Below are positions 734 through 21,421 of a stretch of DNA of 64,000 nucleotides, in pieces (position 1 is the stretch's first letter; every line of letters begins with the position of its first letter). Origin of the DNA: Phycisphaerae bacterium. GTDB lineage: Bacteria > Planctomycetota > Phycisphaerae > UBA1845. Position numbers and translations under genes: made by a program. Under the pieces are notes generated by a model. The model was not told the DNA's origin. It ran no database searches and saw only the letters and a program-made list of their open reading frames with translations. Location: NCBI GenBank assembly GCA_028289375.1, contig JANQQK010000032.1, forward strand, positions 1 to 64,000, given 5' to 3'.

Positions 734-744
734 GCCTCGATCCC

Positions 745-4249: not shown

Positions 4250-4615
4250 TCACCCCAGCACCGCCGCCAACAACGCCCCACGCGTCGGCGTCAGCAGCAC
4301 GAAATCCCCAACCGCGTAATCCCCAACCACGCGGTTCGGCGTCGGATACGCCACCGCCGTCGGCTTCGCCGCGTCAACCGCCACCGGCGGAACACCGTCA
4401 AACACCTGCGGCTGACACACAAGATGCGCCCCATACGTCGCGTCCGACGTGACCACCGCCGTCACCTTCCCCACCGTCTGCACCGCCGCACCAACGCGGC
4501 CTGGATCACGCGTCGCCATCGACGCCGAATCATCCGTCACCTGCAGCGACGACCGATACGCCTCCAGCAACCGCGCCTGATCCGCCCGCAACTCTGCCAA
4601 CGATCGAATCGCCAT
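4250..4615 (-). CDS. Phage cassette protein, unknown (last gene)
   Basis: This 121-residue protein is the final gene of the phage cassette, read from right to left. The N-terminal third is a charged helix (LAELRADQARLLEAYRSS) and the rest is beta-rich with little charge. It starts ten bases after the stop of the preceding fibre-like gene, so the two are cotranscribed. No family is recognised; a tail-fibre accessory or attachment subunit would fit its position. Confidence 0.65.
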   Translation of the reverse strand: MAIRSLAELRADQARLLEAYRSSLQVTDDSASMATRDPGRVGAAVQTVGKVTAVVTSDATYGAHLVCQPQVFDGVPPVAVDAAKPTAVAYPTPNRVVGDYAVGDFVLLTPTRGALLAAVLG

Positions 4616-4624
4616 GACCCACCC

Positions 4625-5326
4625 CTACTCCTCGTCCAGACACACAAGCCCAACCGCATCCACCGCCGACGGCGCCTCCGCATCCGCCACGCCGAGCGCC
4701 GTCAACACATTCTCATCCGTCACGCCCTCCGCCGTCACCGCGCGCACCCCCCACCGCATCCGCAACCCATGCGAAAACGCCACCGACGTAAACGCGTAAT
4801 GCACGCGACCGCGCCTGTAGGTGGTGCCCCCGATTGGAAACGCGAAATTGACATTGCCGGTTCCGCTGTCGTGATAGATCAGAAACCCGATTGGCCGCTC
4901 CTCGGCAAAACGATCATCCATCACCCACGACACGACAAACCGACCACCGGCGACAGCCTTCACGTCCACCGACATCGGCGATGGTGGCCTCGGCCCGACC
5001 AGATCGCCGCCCGCAGAGAACTCTGCCAATATCGGCGACGACGACGCACTCTCCACGCCACCACCACCCACCGATCGCAGTTCATAGTCATACGTGGTAT
5101 TGGCCGCATGCGGTCGCCACGAAAAATTCGACACGCCCGTCGCGTTCGCCCCTGCCGCCCCGACCGGCTGATCCGATCCCGTGCGATACAGGTTGTACCC
5201 GCCAGCCACACGCGGAAACGACCAGCCCAGCGTGGCCGACACACCGTTGGCGATCCCGCGCGGTGTGTACCCGCGGTGAATCGGGTCATAGTGCGTCAGC
5301 CACTTGCTCAACAATTCCGATGCCAT
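4625..5326 (-). CDS. Phage tail-tip/fibre protein with fibronectin III-like domains
   Basis: The 233-residue product contains two beta-sandwich-like segments with the usual fibronectin type III marks (ATLGWSFPRVAGGYNLYR and FVVSWVMDDRF...IGFLIYHDSGTG). Such domains are common on tail tips and fibres and are thought to touch cell surfaces. It sits twelve bases downstream of the 342-residue fibre-like gene. The assignment to the tail tip comes from domain type and position, not from a recognised family. Confidence 0.65.
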   Translation of the reverse strand: MASELLSKWLTHYDPIHRGYTPRGIANGVSATLGWSFPRVAGGYNLYRTGSDQPVGAAGANATGVSNFSWRPHAANTTYDYELRSVGGGGVESASSSPILAEFSAGGDLVGPRPPSPMSVDVKAVAGGRFVVSWVMDDRFAEERPIGFLIYHDSGTGNVNFAFPIGGTTYRRGRVHYAFTSVAFSHGLRMRWGVRAVTAEGVTDENVLTALGVADAEAPSAVDAVGLVCLDEE

Positions 5327-5338
5327 ACCGTGACACTC

Positions 5339-6367
5339 CTAACTCGGGTCCACCACGATCTGATCATCACCGCCATCGCTCGGTGTCAACGTCCGCAACA
5401 CGGTCGTCCCGTCATCGTCGAATACCTCATCGACGCCGGTTGATACCGTATGGCGACGCTTGTTCGCCAGCATCGCCTTCGCAAGCCGTAATTCCGCCCC
5501 CAGCGAGCCAGCCGACTGATGATCGGACACCGGCTCATCGAGCACCGCGTCGGCAATCTCAGCCGCCGACGCACCACCGCCTCCGCCACCACCTCCGGCA
5601 TCGCGAATCGCCTGCAGCGAATCGGTCGTCCGCGAATAGGTAGCCGACCCGTCATCGAGCATCTGCCCGATCACCGAACCGTCCGCCACATCCGTCGACA
5701 GCGTGGCTGCGTTCTTCACGAGCTTGTCGAGGTTCACGTCCGCAAGCGCCTGATCGACCTGCGCATTCACACCGGCCGACGATATGTCATTCAAATCGTC
5801 GAACGTATTCTTCGTACCCGAAATCGAGTACCCGCTCTTGTCGTTGTTCGTCCCGACGCTCACCAGACCAGTCGTCGGCGTGATGGCCAGATCGTCGAAA
5901 TTCGCCGGCACGGCAGACGCAGCCAATCGGCTCGCCACCGACGCATCCAGATTCGCGATGTTCGCCTGCACGTTGTCCGCCGCCGTCGGCGACCCGCTGA
6001 TCCGCACCGCATCAACCTCGAGCTGATCCGTCCCAGTCACCAGGCTGTCGAACACCTGCTGCGGCAACACCATGAAGTCCTCCCACATCGGCAGAAACCC
6101 ATCATCATCGCGCAACGTCACGCGGAAGATCCCCGTCGTGTTCGTATCCGACGTCGTCAGGTTCAACTCCCAATACCCGTCCGCAATGTGCGTGAAGTGG
6201 TTGTTGCCCGACGCTGCCAGCGTCAGCCCCGTCCGCGCGTCGCCCTTGATCACAGCCGCCGTGATGCCGCCCAGCGTCGCCGCCGTCACCGGCGTCACGC
6301 CGTCCGTCTTATCAACCAGCGGACCGACAACAACATCAAGCGCCGTGCTCTGTCTCAGAAATCTCAT
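5339..6367 (-). CDS. Phage tail fibre/baseplate-like protein
   Basis: The 342-residue protein starts with a beta-rich domain (residues 1-110, with the DGYWELNLTTSDTNT segment seen in phage receptor-binding proteins), continues with a long low-complexity helical stretch rich in Asp, Ala and Asn, and has a run of nine glycines around residue 260 followed by EIADAVLDEPVSDH. The polyglycine hinge before a C-terminal helix suits an elongated fibre. The adjacent LamG protein ends one base away, which indicates one transcript. Confidence 0.65.
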   Translation of the reverse strand: MRFLRQSTALDVVVGPLVDKTDGVTPVTAATLGGITAAVIKGDARTGLTLAASGNNHFTHIADGYWELNLTTSDTNTTGIFRVTLRDDDGFLPMWEDFMVLPQQVFDSLVTGTDQLEVDAVRISGSPTAADNVQANIANLDASVASRLAASAVPANFDDLAITPTTGLVSVGTNNDKSGYSISGTKNTFDDLNDISSAGVNAQVDQALADVNLDKLVKNAATLSTDVADGSVIGQMLDDGSATYSRTTDSLQAIRDAGGGGGGGGASAAEIADAVLDEPVSDHQSAGSLGAELRLAKAMLANKRRHTVSTGVDEVFDDDGTTVLRTLTPSDGGDDQIVVDPS

Positions 6368-7135
6368 CTAACCAGCCCTCCGGCTTCTGTAGTATCTCAT
6401 GATGATCGGAACCGACGGCCCACCCGGCGGCGACGATCCCACCTGCCGACTCCACCACCCATCCGCACCAAACGCAGGACCAAGCGGAACGTGGTCCGCA
6501 TGCGTGGCCACGTTGAATCCCGTCAGCGTTCCGTTGAACCCGTGCCCCGACAGATCGGCCAGCGACGTCGTCGTGAAATAGTTGGCTGCCAGCACGCAGC
6601 CGCTCATCACCCGAGGCCTCATCCACCAAGCCGTCATCTCGCCGATCGACAAGACGCGATCGAACAGCGCGATCGCCCCGATCAACCCGCGCAGCGACCG
6701 ATCCGAGTTTGACCGATTGCCCGCATACGCCGCGTTGAGCGCATCGGTATAGAACGCGCCCGATCCGTCATTCGCCGACGCGTAGCTCGCCTCGCTCGGC
6801 GGTGACGACAGGCTGCCCGTGTAGATGTGCGCGATGTTGCTCGACAGGTTCAGGTCCATCGTGAAAGCGACGAACTGCCACGAGCCCGCCGACACGGTCG
6901 TCGATGTCGTGTAGTCCAGCGCCGACGACAGTCGACTCTTGAACAAACGCAATCGCCCTGAAGAATCCGTCACGCGAAAGAACGGTTTGTCGCTGAACTT
7001 CGACCAGATGTAGCGATTGCTGCCCAGCGACGACGGCTTGATCCATGCCACAAACGTCTGCCGGATCAGGTTATCAATCGCCGGGCCGTCGCCATGCATC
7101 ACGCCGGCGTCAACAGTTGCAAAGTTGAGTGCCAT
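6368..7135 (-). CDS. LamG/concanavalin A-like domain protein of the phage cassette
   Basis: The 255-residue protein shows the LamG-like jelly-roll pattern: TFVAWIKPSSLGSNRYIWSK, then SAGSWQFVAFTMD, then LRGLIGAIALFDRVLSIGEM. Domains of this kind bind carbohydrates or serve as receptor-binding tips. Its start overlaps the stop of the preceding gene by one base. It is a plausible adhesin of the particle. Confidence 0.8.
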   Translation of the reverse strand: MALNFATVDAGVMHGDGPAIDNLIRQTFVAWIKPSSLGSNRYIWSKFSDKPFFRVTDSSGRLRLFKSRLSSALDYTTSTTVSAGSWQFVAFTMDLNLSSNIAHIYTGSLSSPPSEASYASANDGSGAFYTDALNAAYAGNRSNSDRSLRGLIGAIALFDRVLSIGEMTAWWMRPRVMSGCVLAANYFTTTSLADLSGHGFNGTLTGFNVATHADHVPLGPAFGADGWWSRQVGSSPPGGPSVPIIMRYYRSRRAG

Positions 7136-7653
7136 TATGTGTCGCTGTATTCAAAGAGGACCGCGAGAACCAAGGCCTTGTCGGCCACGTCATCATCATT
7201 CGGCGATGACTCTGCCCCATCCCGCGCCAAACCGAACAACACCGAATCCCCCGCGGCAACCGACGAGATCGCCATTGTCGCCTCCATCCGCTCGAATGCC
7301 GCACTTGGCGGCCCAGCGTTCACGGCAGCAGCAACCACCGCAGCCAGCTGATCGAGCGACTCTGTGTCACTGCCGCCAACACCGCTGACTTCCAGCTCGA
7401 AGCGAAACCGATTGCCCACTGTCGTCGGCGACGTGTACACAACCACGATCTTGCCCGAACCGGCGAAATCCTGCGGCACCTCGAAACTGCCGTAACACAT
7501 CCGACGACCGGATGGATCGTCGAACACCATCACGAGGTGGTCATACAGCCCATTCGAGCTTTCAATCGAAAACGGCTCGAACCACACCTCGCCACTGTCA
7601 TCGGGCTTGGTCATCGCCCCAAGAATCGGAATCCGATGCGTTGCCATGATCAA
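7135..7653 (-). CDS. Phage cassette protein, unknown
   Basis: The product has 172 residues. The N-terminal half is beta-rich (GEVWFEPFSIESSNGLYDHLVMVF) and the C-terminal half is alanine-rich with possible helices. Its ATG overlaps the TGA of the 83-residue gene upstream as ATGA, a mark of translational coupling; an in-frame ATG two codons later is an alternative. No family is recognised. Position between the tail and fibre genes suggests a tail-tip part. Confidence 0.65.
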   Translation of the reverse strand: MIMATHRIPILGAMTKPDDSGEVWFEPFSIESSNGLYDHLVMVFDDPSGRRMCYGSFEVPQDFAGSGKIVVVYTSPTTVGNRFRFELEVSGVGGSDTESLDQLAAVVAAAVNAGPPSAAFERMEATMAISSVAAGDSVLFGLARDGAESSPNDDDVADKALVLAVLFEYSDT

Positions 7654-7901
7654 ACCCCCTCCCGTGCAAACTTCTGCAACATCCAGTACGCCACCAGCGC
7701 TTTCTTCTGCGCACCGGTGAACGAATGCGGGCTCGTCGCCGTATCAATGGCCGACACGAGCGACGATCGATTCGCCTCGAACCAATTCTCGGTTGCCTGA
7801 ACCGCCGCATTGATCTGTGGTTTGGTCCAGGTCACGTTGCCGACTGACGTGCGAACACGCCGCCGCAATTCCGCCAACTCTTCTGCAGACAACACTGCCA
7901 T
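7650..7901 (-). CDS. Small phage cassette protein
   Basis: This 83-residue, largely helical protein starts MAVLSAEELAELRRRV and ends YWMLQKFAREGV. It is of the right size for a head-tail or tail accessory factor but matches no family I know. It is coupled to the next gene by an ATGA overlap. Confidence 0.65.
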   Translation of the reverse strand: MAVLSAEELAELRRRVRTSVGNVTWTKPQINAAVQATENWFEANRSSLVSAIDTATSPHSFTGAQKKALVAYWMLQKFAREGV

Positions 7902-7913
7902 GGTCTTTCCCTC

Positions 7914-8768
7914 CTACGATCCAATGGTGACGGCTGCCAGACCATTCAGTACGATCGTCAGGTCTGCGCCCGCCGTCGATGATCCGACCTGCTCGATTTC
8001 AAACGTGACAACACTGCCAGCCGAGACGGATGCATTCTTCGTGGCTGATGTGTCCTGATTCTGGCCCGACGAAATGGAAACCATCTCACCTTGATTGGCG
8101 AAGATGGATGCACCGTTGATGCGGACGTCGACGATCAGGCTGGCACCCACCGGCGCCGTCCCCGCCTGTCCAATTGCACTCACGAGCGTGAAATCGAACG
8201 GCGCCGGCCATTCCACGCTCGCCGCCCCCGTCGTCAGATTCCCCGAGATGTGCACCGACGGCGTGATCGGCACAGTGTTGGCCGACGCACCTACCGGCGA
8301 TACGTCGAACAGCACTGCAGGCCGCTCGTCGACAACCGTCATCACGCCCGACGCCGCCGTGACGGTGGCCAATGGCAGAAACGACGTCAGATCCGCAGGA
8401 AACGCAGCCTGCACCTGCAGTGTGTTGCTCGCGTCGACGTAGACCACGCGCGTGCTGTCATCGGGAATTGCCTGATTGACCGCGCCGTCGAAGCACTTGC
8501 GCACGCCGCCAAGCGTGTACCGAATCGGATACACGCCGACCGTCAACGCGCCGTCCTGTACGACCATGCCTTCGCGCATCGCCGCCAGGATCGTGTTCTG
8601 CCGCTGCTGGCGACGGTTGTATTGCACTTCATACGTCGGCGTGCTGTTCGGGCCGACGCCCTTCGCGATGTAGGGCAAACCGGTTGGCGTATCGACGCCA
8701 CCATCGAGCGTCAACACGCTCGCATCGGACGGAAAAACCTCGTCGGGATAAGTGAAACTGCCGGACAT
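7914..8768 (-). CDS. Phage tail/baseplate-like protein, unknown
   Basis: The 284-residue product begins MSGSFTYPDEVFPSD. The frame stays open upstream of this ATG, but those residues overlap the preceding gene and are arginine-rich, and an AAAGAGAG ribosome site precedes the ATG used here. The C-terminal 120 residues are a likely beta-sandwich (FDFTLVSAIGQAGTAPVGASLIVDVRINGASIF), a pattern shared by carbohydrate-binding tail modules. No named family can be given. Confidence 0.65.
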   Translation of the reverse strand: MSGSFTYPDEVFPSDASVLTLDGGVDTPTGLPYIAKGVGPNSTPTYEVQYNRRQQRQNTILAAMREGMVVQDGALTVGVYPIRYTLGGVRKCFDGAVNQAIPDDSTRVVYVDASNTLQVQAAFPADLTSFLPLATVTAASGVMTVVDERPAVLFDVSPVGASANTVPITPSVHISGNLTTGAASVEWPAPFDFTLVSAIGQAGTAPVGASLIVDVRINGASIFANQGEMVSISSGQNQDTSATKNASVSAGSVVTFEIEQVGSSTAGADLTIVLNGLAAVTIGS

Positions 8769-8787
8769 GATGCTCTCTTTCTGATCG

Positions 8788-9276
8788 CTATTTGCCGCTG
8801 ATCGGTTGGAAGCGGCTGGGTTCGAATGAAAACGTGATTTGATCGGTGACGGCGTTGTAACTGTTGCGCGCAAGACATTGGGGAACCGTTGGCGCGCTGT
8901 TGATCGTGATGGCCGCGACGGTCGGCGACGACGTGTTGCCCGCCGCATCACGCATGACCACGGCGTGCTGAAACCGACCGAACACGTAGGCAGGCGTGTC
9001 GTAGATGACGTCAAGCGCCGGTTGCAGATGATCACTGGCCACGTGCCCGGCATCGACGTGGCCATCCCCACAGGCGCCATCCAGATGCCGCAGTGTCAAA
9101 TGACCATCCCGCACGTGGCCGGACCGCGGCGACGCTTCAGGCCAGAGCGCGATCGGCCTCGGCGACAGTGGATGATCGTAGTCGATTGTGCCGGTTCCGA
9201 GATCGCCGAAGACCTCGAACGATGCATCGCCGTTGAACGCGCGCGTTCGTTGGACCTTGACCCGTACCCGTCGCAT
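8788..9276 (-). CDS. Phage tail protein with GHV/DGH repeats
   Basis: The 162-residue product has a short histidine-rich repetitive centre (SGHVRDGHLTLRHLDGA, DGHVDAGHVASDHL, about residues 52-86) between a beta-rich N terminus and a fibronectin-like C terminus (VMRDAAGNTSSPTVAAI). Its ATG overlaps the stop of the 700-residue hub-like gene by one base. Histidine repeats of this type could bind metal in a tail spike, but that is inference. Confidence 0.65.
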   Translation of the reverse strand: MRRVRVKVQRTRAFNGDASFEVFGDLGTGTIDYDHPLSPRPIALWPEASPRSGHVRDGHLTLRHLDGACGDGHVDAGHVASDHLQPALDVIYDTPAYVFGRFQHAVVMRDAAGNTSSPTVAAITINSAPTVPQCLARNSYNAVTDQITFSFEPSRFQPISGK

Positions 9277-11378
9277 CAGACCATTCCCCCGTCATCGTGC
9301 ATCAGCGTCAGCTCCGTTTCGTATCGCCCATCGCCGACGCGAATGCGCTTGCCGATCACGACCGGTCCGTTCAACACGCCGTCGCGACGCGTCACCAGCG
9401 ACACACCGCGTCCGCGAACCTGTTCGATTTCGTCGCCGATGTTGAACCGCGTGCCGACCCATGGCACCGTCGGCGCCACAATGACACGTCGATCCTGCAG
9501 TCGCTCAACGAGTGATCGGCCGAAACGGTTCATCGCCGCCGAGTCGTCCGCACCCGCGCTGACGCCGGGATTGATCATCGCCAAGGCGTTGGTTGTGCCG
9601 TCACCTGTGATGAACCGATACGTGCCGCGACGATCGATGATCTCGGTGGTCATGAGCGAGATCGGCGTGTTCGCGTCGTTGGCACGCACTTCGCCCACAA
9701 GACGATCGTCGCCGGCGAAGACCGCCGTCACCCGGACGCGCATCACCTGATCGATAATCGCGAACCATAGGTTCTGTTCGGCCGGATCAACACCGGGCGG
9801 CGTCACCCCTGTCGGGTTGTCGACGTCGAGCAGAATGCCGGTCGGATCGCGCAGAATGCGAACGTTGCCGCCGGCGCGATGCCAGCTCACGCCACTGTCG
9901 AAACTCAACTCGACCAGCACGCCAAAACGTGCGCCGTCGGCTGTCTCGGTGATCGTCGGTTCAAACGGTCGCAGTCGACGCGTCCACTGACCGGCACGCA
10001 CGACCTCGTTGTCAGCCACGGTCGCGAAATCAAACGGCTGATAGTTTTCGAACGGTGCATTGCGGTTGTACGTTGCCCCGTCGAAGCGGCCATCCTCGTT
10101 GAGCACCCATCGACGTGCGACGAATCGGTTGTCGGCGAACGCGGCGCCATCAGCGTGGTAGTTCGCAAACCACGCACTCAGCGACGCCTTCTCGCCCAGC
10201 ACGGCCGCCTGCGACGGTGTCAACGCGAGCGCCTTGGCCGACGTTCGATTCGCCGGCAAAACGTTGTCCAGGTCGGCGGTCGGCAGCCAACCGGGCACCA
10301 GCGGCACGGTCATCTCGTACCGTTTCACATCGCCGAGCACGATCGGCGCGTTCACGATCCGAGCGTCATCCCAGCGGATCACAGCCTCTGCCACTTCGTT
10401 CGCCCGAAACACGTCGGACGCCGTCAGGCCAGAAGTGTCAAAGCGTGGCACACCGTCGGTGTGCGTTCCGCCGCGCACCAGGTGAAGCGAGCGTGTCGTT
10501 CCATCGCCGGCAGCCCATATGCGAAATGCCGACTGCACAACATCACCCGCCCCGGATGTATCCACCGTCACGTGAATTTCTGCATCGGCGGCCAGTAATG
10601 AAAACGCCTCCACCAGGTTCGTGGCTTCACAGTTCAGCGCGTCACACGTCTCGGCCAACCGCGACGCCAATCGCGGCGATGCATCCGGATCGGCAAACAC
10701 GTTGCCGATCCCCACCGGCCCCGACGGCAGCGCATGAAACCAGACCAGATACCGCAACGCATCGCCATGCGTCCACGACACCGCCGACGGATCGTCATCA
10801 TGCGTGAAGATCGGAACGCTGACCGTCGCGCCGTCGCGCGTCGTCACCGTCAAGGGCGTGGCTGCCCGATTCGGTCGACCATCCAGATTGAACACGCATG
10901 GCAGCGCCGCGACATGCACACTCGCCGACGCATGGTCACTCGGTTGCGACGACAGCCCATCCTCGATGGCTGCATTCCGCATCTGTCGCCCATAGATCCA
11001 ACTCGACCGATCGCGCGACAGCCGTTCGTACACATGGGTGGCCGTAAACCCGAACGATTCGTCCGCCCGCCCGGGACCGCCATGCCATTGCGCTTCCTGA
11101 ATCGGCGGATAACCTTCGAACAACACGTCACCCTCCGCGCGGTTCAACCGCACAGCCACGCGAAGATCAGGCCGATAGCGTGAACGCGCGGCGGCGGTGT
11201 CGAACCCGTTGTCGAGTTGTACGTCGAATCGCGCCGTTGAGATGTCCGCATCGCTGCGCATCGATACGTCGGAGACGCGCAGTCGTTCATCCGCCGCGAA
11301 CACGCCCGAGCCCGGCGAGGTTTCGAGCATGCCGATCAGTGCGGTCGCCTGTCTGGATCTGCCAATCTGAGCTTTCAT
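9276..11378 (-). CDS. Large phage tail hub/tip-like protein
   Basis: At 700 residues this is the largest protein of the cassette. The first 100 residues (VSDVSMRSDADISTARFDVQLDNGF, then VRLNRAEGDVLFEGYPP) have the look of an N-terminal tail-hub domain, in which a ring-forming beta fold is followed by a long beta-rich body. The C-terminal part (IGDEIEQVRGRGVSLVTRR...VGDGRYETELTLM) also fits hub proteins. No lysozyme or peptidase motif was found. It lies where a tail hub is expected, after the gp37-like gene. No tape measure gene sits before it. Confidence 0.65.
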   Translation of the reverse strand: MKAQIGRSRQATALIGMLETSPGSGVFAADERLRVSDVSMRSDADISTARFDVQLDNGFDTAAARSRYRPDLRVAVRLNRAEGDVLFEGYPPIQEAQWHGGPGRADESFGFTATHVYERLSRDRSSWIYGRQMRNAAIEDGLSSQPSDHASASVHVAALPCVFNLDGRPNRAATPLTVTTRDGATVSVPIFTHDDDPSAVSWTHGDALRYLVWFHALPSGPVGIGNVFADPDASPRLASRLAETCDALNCEATNLVEAFSLLAADAEIHVTVDTSGAGDVVQSAFRIWAAGDGTTRSLHLVRGGTHTDGVPRFDTSGLTASDVFRANEVAEAVIRWDDARIVNAPIVLGDVKRYEMTVPLVPGWLPTADLDNVLPANRTSAKALALTPSQAAVLGEKASLSAWFANYHADGAAFADNRFVARRWVLNEDGRFDGATYNRNAPFENYQPFDFATVADNEVVRAGQWTRRLRPFEPTITETADGARFGVLVELSFDSGVSWHRAGGNVRILRDPTGILLDVDNPTGVTPPGVDPAEQNLWFAIIDQVMRVRVTAVFAGDDRLVGEVRANDANTPISLMTTEIIDRRGTYRFITGDGTTNALAMINPGVSAGADDSAAMNRFGRSLVERLQDRRVIVAPTVPWVGTRFNIGDEIEQVRGRGVSLVTRRDGVLNGPVVIGKRIRVGDGRYETELTLMHDDGGMV

Positions 11379-11386
11379 GATGGACC

Positions 11387-12205
11387 CTACGGATTCAATT
11401 GGACAAAACGAAGTTCAAACGACTGCAGCGCTTGGCCCGTGACGGGATGTCGCTTCCGCGGGCCGACGCGTTGAAAACGCTCGCAAACGCAGTCCGCAAA
11501 TGTTCGGCCCCACGCATCGGTCATGGTGTACTCAGCCGCGTCGATCACGGCGCTTTCGATCGTCGTTTCCACGGTGTTCATCGCCGCATCGTCTGCAGCG
11601 CGAAGCTGGCCGGTCCAATCGATGGTGCGACCGCGCAGACCTAGCTCGTGTCGAAACTCGCCCGCAATGCCGGGAAATCCGAACGCGACACGCTCGCCAA
11701 CAAGATCGCCCACAACCACGTTCACGATGCTGTCGTTGCCGGCCAACGCGACTCCGTTGAACGTCGGTGGCGTCAGCTCAGCCACGCGATCGATCAGGTA
11801 TCGCTGCTCAAAGACGGCATGCGTGCCGTCCGCATCGACGATCTGTTCATCGAGCAGCAAGAGCTTGCGATCCGTATCGATCAACGCACCGTCAAGCGCG
11901 CTGGTGACCTTGTCGAGCAAGTCAAAACCAACCGATCCGACCTGCGCGTCGCCGCGATTCTCTTCCGCCGCGATCAGGATCGTGAGCCTGGGCACACCAG
12001 CGACGGCGTCTGTAACGTCGGCGCGAAGCCGACCCGCATAGATCACCAGCGCGGCCGGCGACACATGCCGCCGGACTTGTGCAACGCCGGCCCTGCGGTC
12101 AGGGTCGGGGAAACTCAAGACGGTCTTGAAGACCGGCGTGCTTTCAGACGTGATGCCGCTGATCAGCGCGGAGACGCTCGACGTGATGTTGCCCAGTTCG
12201 CTCAC
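11387..12205 (-). CDS. Mu gp37-like (DUF1834-type) head-tail/tail terminator protein
   Basis: The 272-residue product follows the gp36 homologue, as gp37 follows gp36 in phage Mu. The N-terminal 140 residues resemble gp37/tail-terminator proteins (PRLTILIAAEENRGDAQ, then HAVFEQRYLID). The C-terminal 110 residues (GRTIDWTGQLRAADDAAMN and FELRFVQLNP at the end) appear to be a second domain not present in Mu gp37. The start was taken at the ATG before SELGNITSSV. Family assignment leans on gene order. Confidence 0.55.
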   Translation of the reverse strand: MSELGNITSSVSALISGITSESTPVFKTVLSFPDPDRRAGVAQVRRHVSPAALVIYAGRLRADVTDAVAGVPRLTILIAAEENRGDAQVGSVGFDLLDKVTSALDGALIDTDRKLLLLDEQIVDADGTHAVFEQRYLIDRVAELTPPTFNGVALAGNDSIVNVVVGDLVGERVAFGFPGIAGEFRHELGLRGRTIDWTGQLRAADDAAMNTVETTIESAVIDAAEYTMTDAWGRTFADCVCERFQRVGPRKRHPVTGQALQSFELRFVQLNP

Positions 12206-12226
12206 GATCCTTTTCTCCCAGTGGTC

Positions 12227-12265
12227 GGGTGGCCCACCGCTTCAGCGGTGGGGGAGTCGATTCAG
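12227..12265 (+). repeat. Family B box with alternative core, inside the phage cassette
   Basis: The left arm GGGTGGCCCA and right arm GGGGAGTCGATTC match the other family B boxes, but the core is the unrelated palindrome CCACCGCTTCAGCGGTGG. It lies between the gp36 and gp37-like genes. Confidence 0.85.
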
Positions 12266-12299
12266 AGGTGCTGTTCGGCGTGACCCATTTAGAATTGCC

Positions 12300-12743
12300 T
12301 TAGTGGTCCGCCAGCTCGTCGCGCGTGAGAACGCGTTCGTTGCCTGTCGTCATGGCGTTGATGCCGGTGGCTGCGTTGATGTCGATCTCCGCAACGCTCG
12401 GCAGCGAGACGTCACCCTTGGCCACCCTTTGCAACCAGACGACGGCGGCGGTGCGCTTAACCACGACGTCATCGGGAATCTCGCGACGTCGCGCGTGCAG
12501 TCGATACTCGACCAGATCGAGCGTGATGCTCTTGAGCAGCGGTGAGACGTTGAGATGCGTCGTCAGATCGATCGGCACCGCGTAGCGCCGCGCGAGGTAA
12601 CTGTCGACCTCGGCCTGCGCCCCGTCACGTGCTTCCGCGACGACGTTCGCATCGGCTGTCCCACTGCCCGTGTCGTCGGACAGTTGCACGTAGCGCGCCG
12701 TGCCGAGACGCAGTTCGATATCGTTGTTGGTGATGTAGCTCAT
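12300..12743 (-). CDS. Mu gp36-like head-tail adaptor (DUF1320)
   Basis: The 147-residue protein has the pattern of the Mu gp36 family: an N-terminal YITNNDIELRLGTARYVQLSDD, a central AQAEVDSYLARRYAVPI helix and a C-terminal helix pair. Proteins of this family join the portal to the tail. It overlaps the 3' end of the secreted protein gene by four bases (12740-12743), so an inserted gene upstream is now coupled to it. A gpFII-type connector is the alternative description. Confidence 0.85.
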   Translation of the reverse strand: MSYITNNDIELRLGTARYVQLSDDTGSGTADANVVAEARDGAQAEVDSYLARRYAVPIDLTTHLNVSPLLKSITLDLVEYRLHARRREIPDDVVVKRTAAVVWLQRVAKGDVSLPSVAEIDINAATGINAMTTGNERVLTRDELADH

Positions 12744-13462
12744 CGCTGGTCCTTGGGTTTGTGGGGTGTGGGTTGAAAGGGTGTGGTTGGGATGACCTTT
12801 GCGGCCACGGCGCCGGATGAATTCCCCTTCAGCTCGTAGGCGTACTGAGCCACGATGGTCATCATCATTCTGTTGTCCCTGAGTCCTCCCGGACAGTGAT
12901 TCACAAAGACGCGCGTTTCGATGGTGTCATTGTTGCGGTCTTCACGTGAGAGACGGTTCAGGGTCAGCATGGCGGAGTCGCCACCGAGCATCGTGGCTGA
13001 CATAGCCGTGAAACTCTCCTCCGGCAGGCGTGTGATCAGGGAACGGCTATAAATCCATCCCTTGTCCTCGAATATGTCTTCGTCGCCCCTGCCGAACAGC
13101 ATTCTGTATTCAATATGGGTTTTCTCGCGATTCCATGACGCGACGGCCAGGCACATGTACGCGAGTCTGCGACGGGTGTTTTCCTTCCAGGATTCGGGTG
13201 GATAGTTGTATCCGCCGCCCGCAATACCAATGACTTCGCCAATGGCACCATCGAATTCGAGTGTGAATGACTTGGATTCCTCACCTTTTTGGTATGCACC
13301 GGCGATGCCATTCTTGCCATTGCGGGCATTGAAATTCCACGTGGCGTCGCCGATGGTGAGTTCGACGCCGGTGGGCAAGGGCGGTTGCCATGCGTGGCAT
13401 GCGGCGGTGATGACCAGCAGTGAGAGCACAGGGGCAACCTGCCAATTGAGACGGTTCAACAT
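12740..13462 (-). CDS. Secreted protein embedded in the phage cassette (cargo/moron-like)
   Basis: The 240-residue product has an N-terminal signal sequence (LNRLNWQVAPVLSLLVITAACHA) and a mature part unlike any phage structural protein. I chose this ATG because GGAG lies seven bases upstream; an in-frame ATG at 13504 would add 14 residues. A TATATT box at 13516-13521 suggests the gene has its own promoter. It stands between the capsid and gp36 genes, where Mu-type phages carry none like it. Its style (secreted, beta-rich, no recognised family) matches host genes such as the one at 3403-4080. A moron gene or a host insertion are both possible. Confidence 0.7.
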   Translation of the reverse strand: MLNRLNWQVAPVLSLLVITAACHAWQPPLPTGVELTIGDATWNFNARNGKNGIAGAYQKGEESKSFTLEFDGAIGEVIGIAGGGYNYPPESWKENTRRRLAYMCLAVASWNREKTHIEYRMLFGRGDEDIFEDKGWIYSRSLITRLPEESFTAMSATMLGGDSAMLTLNRLSREDRNNDTIETRVFVNHCPGGLRDNRMMMTIVAQYAYELKGNSSGAVAAKVIPTTPFQPTPHKPKDQR

Positions 13463-13572
13463 GAGCGTTCTCCGAGATGTTGGTTTTCGATTTGAGACAT
13501 TCATTGTTGATTCCCAATATACGACAGGTCGCCCCCTGCTCTCTCGCCAGATCCCCCCTCGTTACCCGTGAA

Positions 13573-14490
13573 TTACACCGTGAAGTCGGTGCGGATGGCG
13601 AACTGCCAATAGCCGTAGGCCATGCTGTAGCGGGCGCGGACGCCGTAGAGGAACTTCTCGCGCTTGAATCCGTCCTCGCTGTCTTCGGTGAGGGCACCGA
13701 ACTCGACCGGTTCGCGGTCCTGGAAAATGAAGGGTCGGACGACGCCGTCGGTCTTGAGCAGGTACCACGTCGAGGCGTCGGTCAGGTGCGGCATCGTCAC
13801 GACGCGGGCCGCTCCGCTGAGCACATTCGATGTGCTGTCGACAACGGAGGCGTTGATCGATTCGAGCGCGGTGAAGTACATCGTTGGGGGCACGACGCAG
13901 GTGAGGCCTGTTGCGCCGATCATCATCGGTTCGCCCTTGTCATCCTTGAAGGCGAGCATCTGGCCAATGGCCTGCTTGAGGGCGTTCTTGAATTCCGTCG
14001 TTGTCGGATTGTCCGCGTCAGCTGCGGTGGCGGTCAGGTCGTTGTCCTGGTTGCCGCTGTTGCCGGAGACGTGGGCATCGTTGAAAAAGGTGACGCCGTC
14101 GTAGCTGTTGAAACCCGTGCTGCCGCCATTGATGAGCAGTTGGGCCAGCAGGTAGTCCTTATGCGTGGCGGCTTGTTGGGCCATCTCGCCGATGCGGATG
14201 CGGATCTGGCCGGTTTGGTCATCGGCGATTTCATCGCGGTCGACTTCGATGGTGGCTTCGTATTTGAGGTTCTCGACCGAGTAGGATTCGGTGCGCATGC
14301 CCATGGCCAATCGGCCGTTGCCCCATTCGCGCATGCGTGGGACGGTGCCAAGCCAGCGATAGGTTTCGCTGTCGGAGGTGCTGGGGATGCGTGTGGCGAG
14401 ATCGGTATAGAGGTTCGGGGCGTTTTCGAAGCGGTTGAGGAATTCGCTTCTTAGGCCTTTGGTTAAGAGTCCTGTATTGATGATGGCCAT
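13573..14490 (-). CDS. Mu gpT-like major capsid protein
   Basis: The 305-residue product matches the Mu-type major head subunit gpT. Recognisable parts are AIINTGLLTKGLRSEFLNRF at the N terminus, RMREWGNGR at about residues 52-60, DDQTGQIRIRIGEMA, the surface loop with YDGVTFFNDAHVSGNSGNQ, and the C-terminal YGVRARYSMAYGYWQFA. Family length is about 300 residues, so the gene looks intact. Capsid proteins of this family form icosahedral shells with the HK97-like fold. It is the strongest evidence for a Mu-type head. Confidence 0.95.
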   Translation of the reverse strand: MAIINTGLLTKGLRSEFLNRFENAPNLYTDLATRIPSTSDSETYRWLGTVPRMREWGNGRLAMGMRTESYSVENLKYEATIEVDRDEIADDQTGQIRIRIGEMAQQAATHKDYLLAQLLINGGSTGFNSYDGVTFFNDAHVSGNSGNQDNDLTATAADADNPTTTEFKNALKQAIGQMLAFKDDKGEPMMIGATGLTCVVPPTMYFTALESINASVVDSTSNVLSGAARVVTMPHLTDASTWYLLKTDGVVRPFIFQDREPVEFGALTEDSEDGFKREKFLYGVRARYSMAYGYWQFAIRTDFTV

Positions 14491-14558
14491 GTGTGGTTGT
14501 CTCCTTGTGGAAGTGGTGTTGCCTGATGCTGGCTTGATGTCTGGAAGCGTTGTGTTTT

Positions 14559-14590
14559 CTTCCCGTCACCCAGAAGGGGTGACGTAACAG
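14559..14590 (+). repeat. Family A palindrome, diverged copy
   Basis: The sequence runs TTCCCGTCACCC-AGAA-GGGGTGACG and then AACAG in place of CTACAG. It lies between the decoration and capsid genes of the phage cassette. Confidence 0.85.
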
Positions 14591-14619
14591 AATCGGGTTT
14601 TGGGTTGGGCCTTTCTTTC

Positions 14620-14671
14620 TTGATCCCTCGATCCCTAGGCCTGTCCCGGCGCGCCGGGATCCCTTGATCCC
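14620..14671 (-). repeat. Family C array with GGCGCGCC core, inverted relative to 19064-19111
   Basis: Read on the minus strand it gives GGGATCAAGGGATCCCGG, then CGCGCCGGGACAGGCCTAGG, then GATCGAGGGATCAAG. The same central 35 bases occur in the opposite orientation at 19078-19112. Confidence 0.8.
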
Positions 14672-14675
14672 TTTC

Positions 14676-15119
14676 CTACGTTGCGTCGGCGTCGGCGATA
14701 CCGTGCAGGCGGACGATGCAGGTGGTGCCGCTGATGTGGGCTTGGATGCGGCCGACGAAGACGTTCTGGCCACTGGAGTCGGTGAGCAGCAGCGTGTCAT
14801 CTGCGACGGCGTAGACCTTGTCGCCGACGCGCGTGATGGTGGCGCTGGCGACGGGGTGTTCGAAGTCGCCCTTGGTGAAGACGCGGACGGAAATGTCGCC
14901 GTTGGACCCGCCGGTGTTGTCCGCCTCTTCGTAGGCGATGCCGACAAAGAAGTTGGTGGTGCCTGCGCTGGCGCCGGCGACGAATGGTTTGGCGTAGCCG
15001 GTGGACTCTTCTATGACGACGAAGGCGCCTTTGTAGATGACGGCATCGGCTTTGACGGGGTAGCTGCGAAGTTCCTGATCGACGTAGTGGTCGACGTCAC
15101 GGTTTGCGGACAGGGCCAT
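14676..15119 (-). CDS. Phage capsid decoration/cement protein
   Basis: The 147-residue product lies between protease and capsid genes. It has an N-terminal segment shared by small head proteins of this position (SANRDVDHYVDQELRSYPVKADAVIYKGAFVVI) and a compact beta domain with VGDKVYAVADDTLLLT and VFVGRIQAHI. This is the pattern of DUF2190-like capsid cement proteins. The neighbouring protease gene ends three bases upstream of its start codon. Confidence 0.75.
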   Translation of the reverse strand: MALSANRDVDHYVDQELRSYPVKADAVIYKGAFVVIEESTGYAKPFVAGASAGTTNFFVGIAYEEADNTGGSNGDISVRVFTKGDFEHPVASATITRVGDKVYAVADDTLLLTDSSGQNVFVGRIQAHISGTTCIVRLHGIADADAT

Positions 15120-15122
15120 GGG

Positions 15123-16103
15123 TTAGTTTCCTTTCTTCTCGTTGAATTCGTTGATGGCGCAGGCGACGTAGGCCTGTTCGGATGTGAGCCCCATGAGCAT
15201 GGGGTTTGATCGGAATTCGGCGCGGGCGCGGGAAGCGATCGCGTTGGATGGGGCGCCGGTTGAGGCGGATGGCGCGGTCGTTTTGCCGCGGGTGATGATG
15301 GTCGGAGACGTCGCTATCCAGCGGTCGAAGAGATCGGCGTCGGACATGGCCAATTCGATGGCGATGTCGCGTTGGGCTTCGGTGAGTTGGCCATTGATGA
15401 CGGCGGCTTGGACCTTGTCGTTTGCGTTCTTCTTTTTGGATTCGGTTTCAAAACGGTCGAGGCAGTGCTTGGCGGTGATGAGGATGGTTTCGTCATCGGC
15501 GGATTCGTCGAGGCCTAGTTGATCGCGCAGGGCGACGAGGGCGTCGGTCGGGGCGTTGAGGTTGGTGACCTGTACGCGGTTGACGATGGGTTCGGCGTTG
15601 ACGATGGCGGGCTTGTTGGTGAGGGCGACCGAGTGGAGCGCGATGAGCTTCTGGTCTTCCTTGCGGACGACAGCCACCGGTGAGAGATAGCGGTATTGCT
15701 TGCTGGCGAGCAGTTCGCGGGCGGGATCGGTCCATTCGACGACGGCGAACAGGCCTTTGCCTGGCTGGGACTCGATGCGTTTGATCCAACCTGCGGCGGG
15801 GGCTTGGCCATTGGGTGAGGCGTAGGTGCCGCCGAGGGTTTGGTGTTCGTAGTCGATGGGCAGGTCGGTGCCGTGTGATTCGAATTGTTGTGTGACGAGG
15901 AGGGCGGATTCGTCGTCGACGGTGAATTGGCCGTTGACGGATTCGACGCCGCCCCACGGTGCGATGCGGACGCGGGTGGGAATGTCGGTGTTGGGCAGGC
16001 GGGCCGCGTCGAGTGGGGTGAGGCGGTGGCCTGCGGGGGTTGTGGGTGGTGTTTGGGTCATGGCGGGTGTCTCCGTTTGGGTGATTTGTTTGTTGGTTGT
16101 CAT
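15123..16103 (-). CDS. Mu gpI-like prohead protease with scaffold domain
   Basis: The 326-residue product matches the Mu protease I family. The catalytic region includes IDYEHQT (about residues 83-89) and GWIKRIE...YRYLSPVAV. The C-terminal third is helical and charged (SKKKNANDKVQAAVINGQLTEAQRDIA), as expected for the scaffold made from the 3' part of gene I in Mu. The protease would mature the prohead by cleaving scaffold. An ATG at 16103 is used; the sequence just after it (TQTETPAMTQTPPTTPAG) is low complexity, so the start could be the internal ATG. Confidence 0.9.
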   Translation of the reverse strand: MTTNKQITQTETPAMTQTPPTTPAGHRLTPLDAARLPNTDIPTRVRIAPWGGVESVNGQFTVDDESALLVTQQFESHGTDLPIDYEHQTLGGTYASPNGQAPAAGWIKRIESQPGKGLFAVVEWTDPARELLASKQYRYLSPVAVVRKEDQKLIALHSVALTNKPAIVNAEPIVNRVQVTNLNAPTDALVALRDQLGLDESADDETILITAKHCLDRFETESKKKNANDKVQAAVINGQLTEAQRDIAIELAMSDADLFDRWIATSPTIITRGKTTAPSASTGAPSNAIASRARAEFRSNPMLMGLTSEQAYVACAINEFNEKKGN

Positions 16104-16112
16104 TGGTTGGTT

Positions 16113-16143
16113 TTCCCGTCACCCACGAGGGGTGACGCTACAG
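16113..16143 (+). repeat. Family A palindrome between protease and portal genes
   Basis: TTCCCGTCACCC-ACGA-GGGGTGACGCTACAG. It fills half of the 63-base gap between two phage genes. Confidence 0.9.
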
Positions 16144-16166
16144 AAGAGGTGTGGTGCGACAAATGG

Positions 16167-17453
16167 TTAACGTGATGCGTTGCCGGTGAGGGTGTCCTGG
16201 GTTGTGGTGGCGCGGGGGAGGCCTAGCTGATCGTGTGCCCAGTCGGCGGGAATTTGGGCGCCGAGTTCGTTGACGGCGGTGGCGATGAGGTCGGCCAATG
16301 GTTGTGCGGTTCGGGCGCGGTTGACCTTGCGCGTGAAGTTGGGGACAGGGGCATCGGGGCCGAAGCGGAAAAGGATGAGCGGGGTGAGGATGTCGCGCTT
16401 GATCGTGTTGGCTTCCTTGCGGATGTCGTCGGTGAGGATGTCCTGGCGGACCTGTTCGTGGACGGTGGTGGCGGAGAGGGAGCCCTTGGCGCCGGTGGTA
16501 TCGGTGGTGAGGGTTTGGCCTAGCCAGGCTTTGGAGATTTCGCGATTGAGAAAATCGAGGAGTCGTTCGTAGGGTGGTCCTGCGTTTCCGCGGTTGGCTT
16601 CGACGATTTGGAGATCGACGGCGCGGGAGAAGATGCCGGCTGCGTTAGCGCCGAGGGATTCGAGCATGTGGAGCATTTCGCGTTTTTCCTCGGGCGTGGC
16701 GGATGGCTCGTATCGGGCGATGCGGACGGGCATGCCGAAGGTTTCGGCGAAGATCATCCAGTCTTTGAGGGCGAGATTCTTGGCGAGGTAGGCCATTGCG
16801 GTGACGCGGAGGAGTCCGCCGCGGGTGGCGTGGCCTGTGGTGCAGTGCGGGGTGTGGAGGATGAATTTGTTGGGGGCGAGGTCGATGCCGTCGAAGCGGG
16901 CGTCGTCGGTGAGGATGCGCGGTTGGTCGGTGTCGTCGAAGACGATGCGGGTGAAGTCGACCGGCACGGTTTCGGAGAGAACGAGGCGGTCGCCCTTTTG
17001 GGTCCAGACGAGTTCGGCGATGGCGATGTTGCGACCGGTGGCGAGGGCGAGGTGTTGGAGAGTGTCGTCGAAGCCGGACGTGCGGGAGAGGATGTTGCGT
17101 GCGTGGTTGGCGGTGGCCATGGCGAGGTCGCGGTTTTCGGCGCGCGGGTCGGGGGTGATGGTCCAGTCGAGTCCGGTGAGGGCGAGTCGGCGTGTGTTGG
17201 CGACGGCGTAAAGGTGCGGGTCTTTTTCTTCCATCTCTTCGTAGAGCTGCATGGCGGCGGCGGGGTGGCCTGCGTCGGCTTCGCGGAGGATGGCGAAGAG
17301 TCTGGATGGGGTGAGGTTACTGGATGGGTAGTCGCGCCAGGTGTCTTCGGGGCGGGTGGTGAGAAGTTGGCCTGTGGATGGGCGGGTTGTGGAGCGCGGG
17401 GTGCGGAGGGCGTTGATGATGCGCCTGGTGGTGTTGATGAGGGTGGTGGTCAT
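16167..17453 (-). CDS. Mu gp29-like portal protein (DUF935)
   Basis: The 428-residue product fits the DUF935 portal family. Marks are SRLFAILREADAGHPAAAMQLYEEMEEKDPHL near residue 50, LTGLDWTITPD, FDGIDLAPNKFILHTPH, LKDWMIFAETFGMPVRIARYEP and KAWLGQTLTTDTTG. The frame is open for 450 more codons upstream, but that part is an arginine-rich shadow of the terminase gene; the ATG before TTTLINTTRR starts the family-like sequence. The next gene in Mu, the minor head protein gpF, is missing, because the protease starts 63 bases away. Confidence 0.93.
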   Translation of the reverse strand: MTTTLINTTRRIINALRTPRSTTRPSTGQLLTTRPEDTWRDYPSSNLTPSRLFAILREADAGHPAAAMQLYEEMEEKDPHLYAVANTRRLALTGLDWTITPDPRAENRDLAMATANHARNILSRTSGFDDTLQHLALATGRNIAIAELVWTQKGDRLVLSETVPVDFTRIVFDDTDQPRILTDDARFDGIDLAPNKFILHTPHCTTGHATRGGLLRVTAMAYLAKNLALKDWMIFAETFGMPVRIARYEPSATPEEKREMLHMLESLGANAAGIFSRAVDLQIVEANRGNAGPPYERLLDFLNREISKAWLGQTLTTDTTGAKGSLSATTVHEQVRQDILTDDIRKEANTIKRDILTPLILFRFGPDAPVPNFTRKVNRARTAQPLADLIATAVNELGAQIPADWAHDQLGLPRATTTQDTLTGNASR

Positions 17454-17508
17454 GGGGGGGATTCCTGTATTGCGCGGGGTTTGGTTGGGGTATTGGCAGT
17501 TGTTGGTG

Positions 17509-17539
17509 TTCCCGTCACCCACAAGGGGTGACGCTACAG
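17509..17539 (+). repeat. Family A palindrome between portal and terminase genes
   Basis: TTCCCGTCACCC-ACAA-GGGGTGACGCTACAG, in the 116-base gap between the portal start and the terminase stop. Confidence 0.9.
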
Positions 17540-17569
17540 AAGGCGGGGTTGTCGGGTGTCTTGCCATGG

Positions 17570-18880
17570 TTACCAGGTTCCGGTGTTGGCGAAGGCGAGG
17601 GGTTTGATGGTGAGGTGCTGGGGATTTGTGTTGGTGAAGTTTTGGGCGGCGGCGCTGGTGGCGAGGGCGGCGGCCCAGAAGCGGTCGGCGTGGCCTGTTT
17701 GGGATCGCTGTGCGTCGAAGCGGGCGAGACCTGTGGTGGTGATGGTGCGTCGGAGGCTGTGAAAGTCGTTGCGGATGTCGGGGTCGACGGGGATGCGGAT
17801 GGAGCGGTTTTCGAAGTGGATGCGCAGCTTGTTGGCGAGCTCGTTCTTGATGGTGTTGGTGAAGGTGACGGGGGTAACGCGGTGTTGGCCTGCTCGGTCG
17901 ACGAGTGATTCGGCGAGTTGCATGCCGATGCCGCCGGCGTCGATGGCGAGGCGGTGGACGTGTTTGTTGTCGAGGAGGCTCGCCAGCAGATCGAACTGGT
18001 TCTGGAAGGTTTCGTTCTGACGTTCGTAGACGGCGCGGGTGATGAGGTGGTCGTATTCGCGCTGGATGATCCAGATGACGGTGAGGTCGCGTTTGCGGCC
18101 TACGTCGACGCCGATGCAGAGGTTTTCGAATTCGTTGAGCGTGGTGATGTCGGGGGTTTTGTCGAGGGTGGGGTCCTGGCAGGTGGTGATCATGTCGTGG
18201 GTGAGGAAGGCGGTGGATTCGTCGAGGAATTCGCAGTTGAATTCCTGGCGGTAGAGTTCGTCGTCGCCCATGGAAGCGCGGATGTCGTCGGCGTTGATGT
18301 TGAGGCATTGGGCGATGGCGTCGTCGAGGGTGACGACGGACTTTTCGAAGCGGTCGTTCTGGGAGAGGTCGTAGAAGACGTTGTTTTTGCCTTTGGGGGT
18401 TGATGCGACGTCGAGTTCGCCGTTTCCGCGGAGAAGGGTCGGGAAAATGGCGGCCCAGATGTCGCGGTCGTGGGCGTGCATGGCGAACTCGTCGAGGAAG
18501 ACGTCGCCGGTGAAGCCTCGTACGGTTTCGGGGTTTGCGGGCAGGCCAATGATGCGGACGCCGTTGGGCAGTTCGATTTCGAGCTGGTTGTACTTCGTGC
18601 CTTTGAGGATGGGGTTGTTGTCGAAGGTGGTGGCGATTTCGAGGGCCTGGCAGTGCATGCGTGCCTTTTGCATGAGTTCTTTGGATTGGCGTTCGCTTGC
18701 ACTGAGGAAGATCTGGTTTCGGCGACGCTTGATGCCACGGATGACGCGGCGGAGGGACTTGGTGAAGGACTTGCCGGTTTGTCTTGCCCAGCATGACCAG
18801 CGGAAGCGGGCGTTGGACTCGATGTCTTCGCGTTGGAAGTCGAGGAGGGGAATGACGGGTTTGGGTTTGGCGTGGACCAC
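17570..18880 (-). CDS. Phage terminase large subunit, Mu gp28-like
   Basis: The 436-residue protein packages DNA into the prohead. The ATPase domain has a Walker A-like ARQTGKS (residues 32-38) and Walker B VFLDEF (127-132). The nuclease domain has GVDVGRKRD (257-265), the acidic IDAGGIG (312-318) and a late HADRFWAAAL, the usual RNase H-like triad positions. All key residues are present, so the protein may be active. No small terminase gene precedes it: only a 226-base gap separates it from the zinc-ribbon gene cluster. Confidence 0.93.
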   Translation of the reverse strand: MVHAKPKPVIPLLDFQREDIESNARFRWSCWARQTGKSFTKSLRRVIRGIKRRRNQIFLSASERQSKELMQKARMHCQALEIATTFDNNPILKGTKYNQLEIELPNGVRIIGLPANPETVRGFTGDVFLDEFAMHAHDRDIWAAIFPTLLRGNGELDVASTPKGKNNVFYDLSQNDRFEKSVVTLDDAIAQCLNINADDIRASMGDDELYRQEFNCEFLDESTAFLTHDMITTCQDPTLDKTPDITTLNEFENLCIGVDVGRKRDLTVIWIIQREYDHLITRAVYERQNETFQNQFDLLASLLDNKHVHRLAIDAGGIGMQLAESLVDRAGQHRVTPVTFTNTIKNELANKLRIHFENRSIRIPVDPDIRNDFHSLRRTITTTGLARFDAQRSQTGHADRFWAAALATSAAAQNFTNTNPQHLTIKPLAFANTGTW

Positions 18881-19956: not shown

Positions 19957-20784
19957 TCATGGGATTGTACATGGTTGCCCGCATTCGGGGCAGCGCGGGG
20001 TTTTGAGGTGAGCGACGGTGTAGCCGCAGTAGGAGCATTTGGTGGGGTCGTTGTCGATGAACTTTGGGTTGGCGGTGAGGAGTTGGTAGAGGGTTTTGGG
20101 GATGGTTGCGCGGGTACGGGCGCGGATTTCGTTGAAGGTGCCGATGGCGATGAGTGATGCGCCCAATGCGGCGACGTGTCTTCCGACCAACGCATTCGAG
20201 ATACCGACGAGTCGCTCCACGAGTTCAAGAGCGAAGTAAATCGCCACTGCGAATTTGGCGCATTGCAGGAATCTTCTGCCTTTGCAGACGAAGATGATTG
20301 AATAACCCGCTGTGACGAGGAATACGAAGCACCACGTCCACTCGAATAGTCCCATGTCCGGCGCATGGGTGGCTACAAATGTTGACCACAAGTAACCAGT
20401 GTCGAGGATTGCGGGTATTGACAGTGACACGCATACGGCGCTCGCCGTTGTCAGGGACGCTTGCGGATTTCGAATCCTGATGATGAGTGGTATGGCTACC
20501 AGCGCGCCGAACACATATTGGGCAACGCCTCCGCAATAGAGATGGATGAGACTGGGCCAGTTGATCGGTGGACCCAGTGGTCTTTCCAGCACGGCCAAGT
20601 CGGTTCTCCATCCCGAGCCAATGGGCCAGGCGGGCAGGAAGAGGGCGGTGGCGAGAAGGAGTCCGCCGATGAGTTGCAGCCACCATGCGCGGCTTAGGGC
20701 TGTATTGGGGGCGATTGTATCAACCCGATGTGATTCGGTGATGTGCGTCTTGCCGGATGGTGTTTTTGGGTTGGGTTGTGGCAT
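19957..20784 (-). CDS. Zinc-ribbon membrane protein (C-terminal ribbon), paralogue 2
   Basis: The 275-residue product has about six hydrophobic segments (LQLIGGLLLATALFLPAW, YVFGALVAIPLII and others) and a C-terminal ribbon KCSYCGYTVAHLKTPRCPECGQPCTIP. It begins just left of a family A repeat copy, and its stop is one base from the next gene. The overall layout matches the neighbour although the membrane part has diverged almost beyond recognition. No function can be given. Confidence 0.8.
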   Translation of the reverse strand: MPQPNPKTPSGKTHITESHRVDTIAPNTALSRAWWLQLIGGLLLATALFLPAWPIGSGWRTDLAVLERPLGPPINWPSLIHLYCGGVAQYVFGALVAIPLIIRIRNPQASLTTASAVCVSLSIPAILDTGYLWSTFVATHAPDMGLFEWTWCFVFLVTAGYSIIFVCKGRRFLQCAKFAVAIYFALELVERLVGISNALVGRHVAALGASLIAIGTFNEIRARTRATIPKTLYQLLTANPKFIDNDPTKCSYCGYTVAHLKTPRCPECGQPCTIP

Positions 20785-20790
20785 CGGGGC

Positions 20791-20821
20791 TTCCCGTCAC
20801 CCACAAGGGGTGACGCTACAG
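20791..20821 (+). repeat. Family A palindrome forming the stop codon of the 20816 gene
   Basis: TTCCCGTCACCC-ACAA-GGGGTGACGCTACAG. The TAG stop of the minus-strand gene ending at 20816 is read from the CTACAG arm. Confidence 0.95.
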
Positions 20822-21271: not shown

Positions 21272-21390
21272 TCTGTGATCGATGGGTGTTCTGATTGATT
21301 CTATGGAAATGTTGTGCAGCAGGGCAACGGTGTTCGGCGGGGAGGTGGCGAACAGCCTCGCCAATCGGGTTGCTCGCCGTTGATTGGGCC

Positions 21391-21421
21391 TTCCCGTCAC
21401 CCACAAGGGGTGACGCTACAG
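21391..21421 (+). repeat. Family A palindrome forming the stop codon of the 21416 gene
   Basis: This copy is identical to the one at 20791-20821, and the similarity continues into the coding sequence on its right (GGGGTTCGGTTGGGA), so the two gene ends are duplicates. Confidence 0.95.

Follow-up and report, generated by a model that had tools for sequence, protein, structure and literature searches.

A Mu-type head cassette with a collapsed tail in an order of Phycisphaerae: a candidate GTA-like viriform of Planctomycetota

According to their definition as viriforms, gene transfer agents (GTAs) use proteins derived from caudoviricetes, are fully endogenised, often across multiple loci, are inherited mostly vertically and co-diversify with their hosts, have a head too small to package their own genes at all or in full, and package mostly random host DNA, which they deliver to other cells (PMC9662315). 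Their prevalence is unknown since they are hard to recognise (PMC11841831). The genetic basis is known for few groups of GTAs; in the open-access literature we found no report of a planctomycete GTA or of the cassette described here. The cassette is located in a stretch of 64,000 nucleotides from a Phycisphaerae bacterium (the window) and consists of a row of phage genes at positions 4250 to 18880, approximately 14.6 kb; the GTA cluster of Brachyspira (BhGTA) measures 16.3 kb. It resembles the RcGTA-like agents (Rhodogtaviriformidae), BaGTA and BhGTA in its caudoviricete-derived head and neck genes, its single large terminase subunit (TerL), its endogenisation, sometimes at several loci, its vertical inheritance and co-diversification with the hosts, and the lack of replication and integration genes. 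It differs from them in its Mu-type portal and gpT head, in its host phylum, Planctomycetota, in the lack of a tail tube, a tape measure and, within the cluster, an endolysin, in the fusion of the tail terminator to a Dit-like domain, and in being known from its genes alone. We consider it likely that the cassette encodes a vertically inherited, host-owned DNA-packaging particle, most probably GTA-like, with a collapsed tail. Three of the six defining features of GTAs were found in its sequence: origin (caudoviricete-derived proteins recognised by Pfam and PHROGs matches), endogenisation (host genes on both sides and split loci in genomes G343, G361, G278 and G208) and vertical inheritance with co-diversification (congruence with rpoB, a near-universal distribution and shared flanks). 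It is a candidate for a new, independent GTA-like viriform clade that spans an order and has a new tail architecture, not a proven GTA. Within the open-access literature no GTA-like element would have been proposed for Planctomycetota before it, and the phage lineage from which it would stem had a Mu-type head.

With Mu-like phages and prophages (Mushuvirus, the JBD26 type of Pseudomonas and prophages G305:C16, G220:C7 and G136:C200 of the same order) the cassette shares the backbone TerL-portal-protease-cement-gpT-gp36, and thus the portal, protease and gpT head genes typical of such phages; hub, tip and fibre genes are shared with the order's own prophages. The tail, transposition or integration, and lysis genes that lie beside the head genes of Mu-like phages were not found in the cassette or its close flanks. 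Unlike the cassette, the prophages of the order, which are distributed patchily in few genomes, retain gpF, a tail tube and a tape measure and have the Dit-like gene as a separate frame. The nearest portals of cultured phages are approximately 35% identical to that of the cassette. Encapsulins are HK97-type shells recruited by a host without the phage motor; they are not known to keep a portal, terminase or maturation protease. The cassette resembles them in the recruited HK97-type shell but conserves all three of these proteins.

All genes of the cassette are encoded on the minus strand in open frames. A preliminary description, made from the sequence alone, had recognised an intact, single-strand set of terminase, portal, protease, decoration, gpT and gp36 genes, which was confirmed by matches to Pfam and PHROGs profiles. 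The row starts with TerL (436 aa, 17570-18880; Terminase_6N/6C, 1e-16), followed by the Mu-type portal protein (428 aa, 16167-17453; Portal_Mu, E 1.8e-90), the Mu-type head maturation protease gpI (15123-16103; Mu-like_Pro, E 1.2e-51), a head decoration or cement protein (14676-15119; Phage_cement_2, 1.5e-6; phrog_1731, 7e-26), the major capsid protein of the gpT family (13573-14490; Mu-like_gpT, E 1.8e-58) and, beyond an inserted open reading frame (ORF), the head-tail adaptor gp36 (12300-12743; Phage_Mu_Gp36, E 2.2e-25). Next comes a gp37-like gene (11387-12205), the product of which appears to be an in-frame fusion of an N-terminal tail terminator and a C-terminal Dit-like distal tail domain, as judged from an orthologue and from profile matches. 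It directly precedes the gene of a 700-aa baseplate-hub-like protein (9276-11378), homologous to the protein that follows the Dit-like protein in viral contigs and true prophages, and that of a conserved post-hub protein, probably the tail tip (8788-9276), which occupies the same position in relatives and prophages. These three proteins have no direct Pfam or PHROGs match and were named via their relatives, in which synteny and profile matches bore out the gp37-like, hub-like and fibre-like identities proposed earlier.

The remaining genes form the tip and fibre run. It comprises a fibre-like protein with a probable start at 8768 (7914-8768; phrog_27064, 1.8e-6; 33-41% identity in prophages and one viral contig), a small protein (7650-7901) and a fibre-associated protein (7135-7653), both common to the congener only, a concanavalin A-like (laminin G) fibre protein (6368-7135; PF13385, Laminin_G_3, E 7.7e-11), a fibre-like protein with conserved ends that is kept in families f1-f3 and in f28 (5339-6367), a fibre or tip protein kept in f1-f3, f28 and viral contigs (4625-5326) and, as the last cassette gene, a small conserved protein kept in f1-f3 (4250-4615). 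The ORF between gpT and gp36 (12740-13504), probably encoding an exported protein, was considered as a member of the phage set and rejected, as the gap between gpT and gp36 is without it in the congener and in all other relatives fetched. Because it is missing in the congener and has only distant, non-cassette relatives, located elsewhere in six other genomes of the family, it is regarded as a later insertion outside the ancestral cassette.

As the preliminary description had stated, the cassette contains no integrase, transposase, repressor, lysis, tail tube, sheath or tape-measure genes. Nor was a small terminase seen within it or a lysis or regulator gene linked to it. Searches of the whole genome yielded one match each for TerL, portal and gpT and none for gpF and the PF10145 tape measure, the two missing parts sought genome-wide.

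How the tail was lost is suggested by viruses and prophages that retain it. Three IMG/VR contigs (L119, L123, L124) carry in a row a tube-sized protein, a tape-measure-sized protein of 457-865 aa, a Dit-like protein of 131-151 aa and the hub, and the viral contig L009 has a similar row; these viral genes were called tube, tape measure and Dit-like on account of their size and their order, together with a match to a tube profile of PHROGs/Pfam in L010, that is, from sequence rather than structure. The true prophages of G305, G220 and G136 have the backbone of the cassette, but here gp36 is separated from the hub by gpF-like, tube-sized and tape-measure-sized genes. gpF was found in 4 of 15 genomes searched, each of which also has true-prophage genes. 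The C-terminal half of the fused protein matched the viral Dit-like protein ahead of the hub in two contigs (E ~1e-7), and a profile-profile comparison with the viral pre-hub proteins by hhalign gave a probability of 98.5% (E 1.5e-15, 118 columns). True prophages have only this half, as a separate frame of 143-179 aa ahead of the hub, and the full fused form was found in about 29 cassettes of f1-f4 in a genome search. In the f3 orthologue, the N-terminal half gave a match to phrog_490 (2.3e-7) and weak ones to Phage_tail_terminator and Phage_Mu_Gp37, and phrog_490 is likewise matched by the gene that follows gp36 in L009; the comparison of the N-terminal half with three viral terminators by hhalign was not significant. 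Based on the matches of the orthologue and on gene order, the N-terminal half would belong with the tail terminators. PDB profile searches with the hub and the fused protein returned nothing usable, and the predicted structures had a pLDDT of 35 for the fused protein (alignment of only 2 sequences) and 47 for the hub (alignment of only 9 sequences), both too low for use. The prophages keep gpF, and both they and the viral contigs keep tube and tape measure, with the Dit-like gene standing by itself; the cassette has thus lost gpF, tube and tape measure, and the terminator and Dit-like genes flanking the resulting tail gap have become one. In G148, the fused gene (L042, 10549-11382) contains one in-frame TGA.

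The preliminary description had proposed a search for the cassette in related Phycisphaerae genomes, and it proved to be nearly universal in the order. Among 397 genomes drawn across the class (46 of the same family, 52 from the rest of the order and 299 others), the portal was found in 42 of the 46 and 46 of the 52, i.e., in 88/98 genomes of the order, mostly as a single copy; outside the order it was present in 6/299 genomes, with an identity of at most 34%. gpT was detected in 90/110 genomes of the order and in 60 of 65 of high quality. TerL was detected in 77/110 and, within families f1-f3, in 73 of their 77 genomes (f1, 46/47; f2, 16/17; f3, 11/13); the f1 count takes in G136, in which the TerL is that of a prophage and the cassette-type remnant has only 35 residues. 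The same search of 110 genomes found no close TerL in f5. Relatives keep the order TerL-portal-protease-cement-gpT-gp36. A common locus, also anticipated, was found within genera and sets of genera and not across the order. Neither a patchy distribution with many broken copies nor adjoining integration and lysis genes, named beforehand as contrary signs, were observed; a few lineages (genus g3 and G136) do show decay.

Downstream of gp36 the lineages vary. The module found in the window (module A), which has hub and fibres, occurs in f1, f2, f3 and f4 and also in f28, where the hub was undetected, and some f2 cassettes end after the terminator half. In six fetched f1 loci (L044, L047, L048, L049, L051, L052), module B replaces module A after gp36; it consists of proteins of 159-178, 148 and 148 aa and fibre-like genes. 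These loci have no hub and no match to a known family, and hhalign revealed no detectable relation of the module B proteins B11 and B12 to either half of the fused protein. Any hub match was found in 33/110 genomes of the order, part of them from prophages. As most cassettes of the order are without a hub and some in f1 have the unrelated module B, a conserved tip cannot serve for delivery in general; in sister lineages the element would have shrunk further, to capsid, motor and adaptor without a hub. Family f5 keeps portal, protease, gpT and gp36, and Terminase_6C was undetected in 8 of the 13 f5 genomes searched, so packaging there may be lost or changed. In the f5 cassettes L059, L060 and L083, portal and protease are separated by a gene for a GNAT acetyltransferase, and a terminase does not adjoin them.

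Comparison with the host tree argues for vertical descent. Splits shared with the rpoB tree amounted to 11/25 for portal, 9/22 for TerL and 12/25 for gpT, as opposed to a mean of ~0.2 and a maximum of 3 in a shuffled control, and within f1 all four supported portal splits recur in the rpoB tree. In the portal tree f1, f2, f3 and f5 are each monophyletic, and a single branch separates all cassette portals from 29 viral portals (support 69, not strong). Host flank genes are common to three to four genera in each of f1, f2 and f3 and not order-wide. Vertical inheritance of the cassette goes back at least to the ancestor that f1-f4 share and probably to that of the whole order. The dN/dS ratios that the preliminary description had called for indicate purifying selection: in three same-genus pairs they were 0.04-0.27 for nearly all genes, with the exception of gene 4250-4615, at 0.57 in one pair. 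As in the window, all 29-32 relatives examined have open frames without stops for TerL, protease, cement, gpT and gp36. In TerL the Walker A motif RQxGKS, the Walker B residues DE130-131 and the nuclease residues D259, D314 and D399 are kept in at least 95% of 29 relatives. In rpoB, the six f2 genomes that were searched (L108-L113) all carry an insertion of ~220 residues close to model position 391.

In several genomes the cassette genes occupy two or three separate loci, each piece being retained. G343 has TerL and portal on one contig and the genes from protease to fibres deep within another, two cassette parts lie ~21 kb apart in G361, TerL is on a contig of its own in G278, and in G208 TerL and portal are separate from the protease-to-fibres part. 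Split loci in G325 and G367 were given less weight, as these are single sequences with N gaps and rpoB is also split in G367. Genes at separate loci cannot move together as a phage, and their joint packaging into one particle is unlikely.

The preliminary description had favoured a long-resident, maintained cassette over a decaying prophage, and the order-wide presence, the unbroken frames, the signs of purifying selection, the congruence of the trees with the host tree and the flanks shared within families all speak for it; domestication, i.e., a phage remnant owned by the host, is well supported. An ordinary defective prophage in slow decay would account for the many phage functions that are gone and for the broken copies in g3; it is scarcely credible in view of the near-universal occurrence, the open frames, the low dN/dS, the agreement of the trees with the host and the retention of even scattered genes. 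That a functional phage or satellite with replication genes elsewhere repeatedly reinfects the order is very unlikely. It is favoured by the cassette's prophage relatives in the same order (TerL identity 48-51%) and by the gpT proteins of viral contigs (55-62% identity), but the separate loci preclude joint travel, the gene trees track the host, the flanks are common within genera and between some genera, and the best viral portal and the best viral TerL found are only 40% and 26% identical, respectively.

A domesticated, vertically inherited cassette might also serve another purpose, for example as a DNA-filled capsid that does not deliver its content and acts in DNA release, in interference with infecting phages through capsid or terminase parts, or as an altruistic lytic device. 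Many cassettes keep TerL to gp36 without hub and fibres, the tail has collapsed even where the hub is retained, and f5 retains capsid genes mostly with no detectable terminase, all of which suits such a capsid. Yet the window lineage has kept hub, tip and fibres intact, with purifying selection acting on them, which is hard to explain without contact with a cell surface, and we judge a non-delivering capsid possible and on the whole improbable. For the GTA-like particle, we incline slightly towards its strictest form, a host-owned DNA-packaging particle throughout the order in which the tail tube is wholly absent and hub and fibres dock straight on the neck.

The GTA-like particle would have arisen as follows. 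The ancestor was apparently a phage with a Mu-type head and, judged by its relatives, a tail with tube and tape measure; replication, integration, lysis, gpF, tail tube and tape measure would have been lost from it. Fusion of the terminator and Dit-like genes would have placed terminator, hub and fibres directly beneath portal and adaptor; as terminator and Dit-like domain are in one protein, it is proposed that hub and fibres dock directly onto the neck. The host would express the genes, the capsid would be built from gpT with protease and cement protein, and TerL would fill the head (headful) with whatever DNA is present, the proposed lack of packaging specificity following from the absence of a small terminase from the cassette. 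Host functions would release the particles, which would attach via hub and fibres and carry host DNA to kin, as in GTAs. We infer particle production, random DNA packaging and delivery from the gene set. If particles are made, they would provide a route of gene exchange in Planctomycetota and show how little tail a domesticated particle needs. A clear phage comparator is present in these hosts too, and the collapse of the tail through the fusion of two genes is a molecular event open to testing.

The flanks of the cassette resemble ordinary host DNA, with genes for an aspartyl-tRNA synthetase, an AbiEii-like protein, a MobA-like transferase and a sugar nucleotidyl transferase; the window start is the end of contig C74 (75,852 bases). 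Host dispersed repeats had been noted between the cassette genes, and indeed the palindrome GTCACCC...GGGTGAC occurs in cassette spacers at 14560, 16113 and 17509 and outside the cassette at 20791, 21391, 57679 and 62891. A second dispersed palindromic repeat, GGGATCCCGGCGCGCCGGGATCCC, is found at 1414, 3255, 14644, 19086 and 57602; both are REP-like. A MobA-like transferase gene lies just beyond the cassette in two genera (window 457-1389; L048 13075-13674), which may be left over from a locus that they shared or be due to chance. Upstream of the cassette, at 19957-21820, three adjacent membrane-protein genes encode a similar terminal CxxC...CPECGQPC motif resembling a zinc ribbon.
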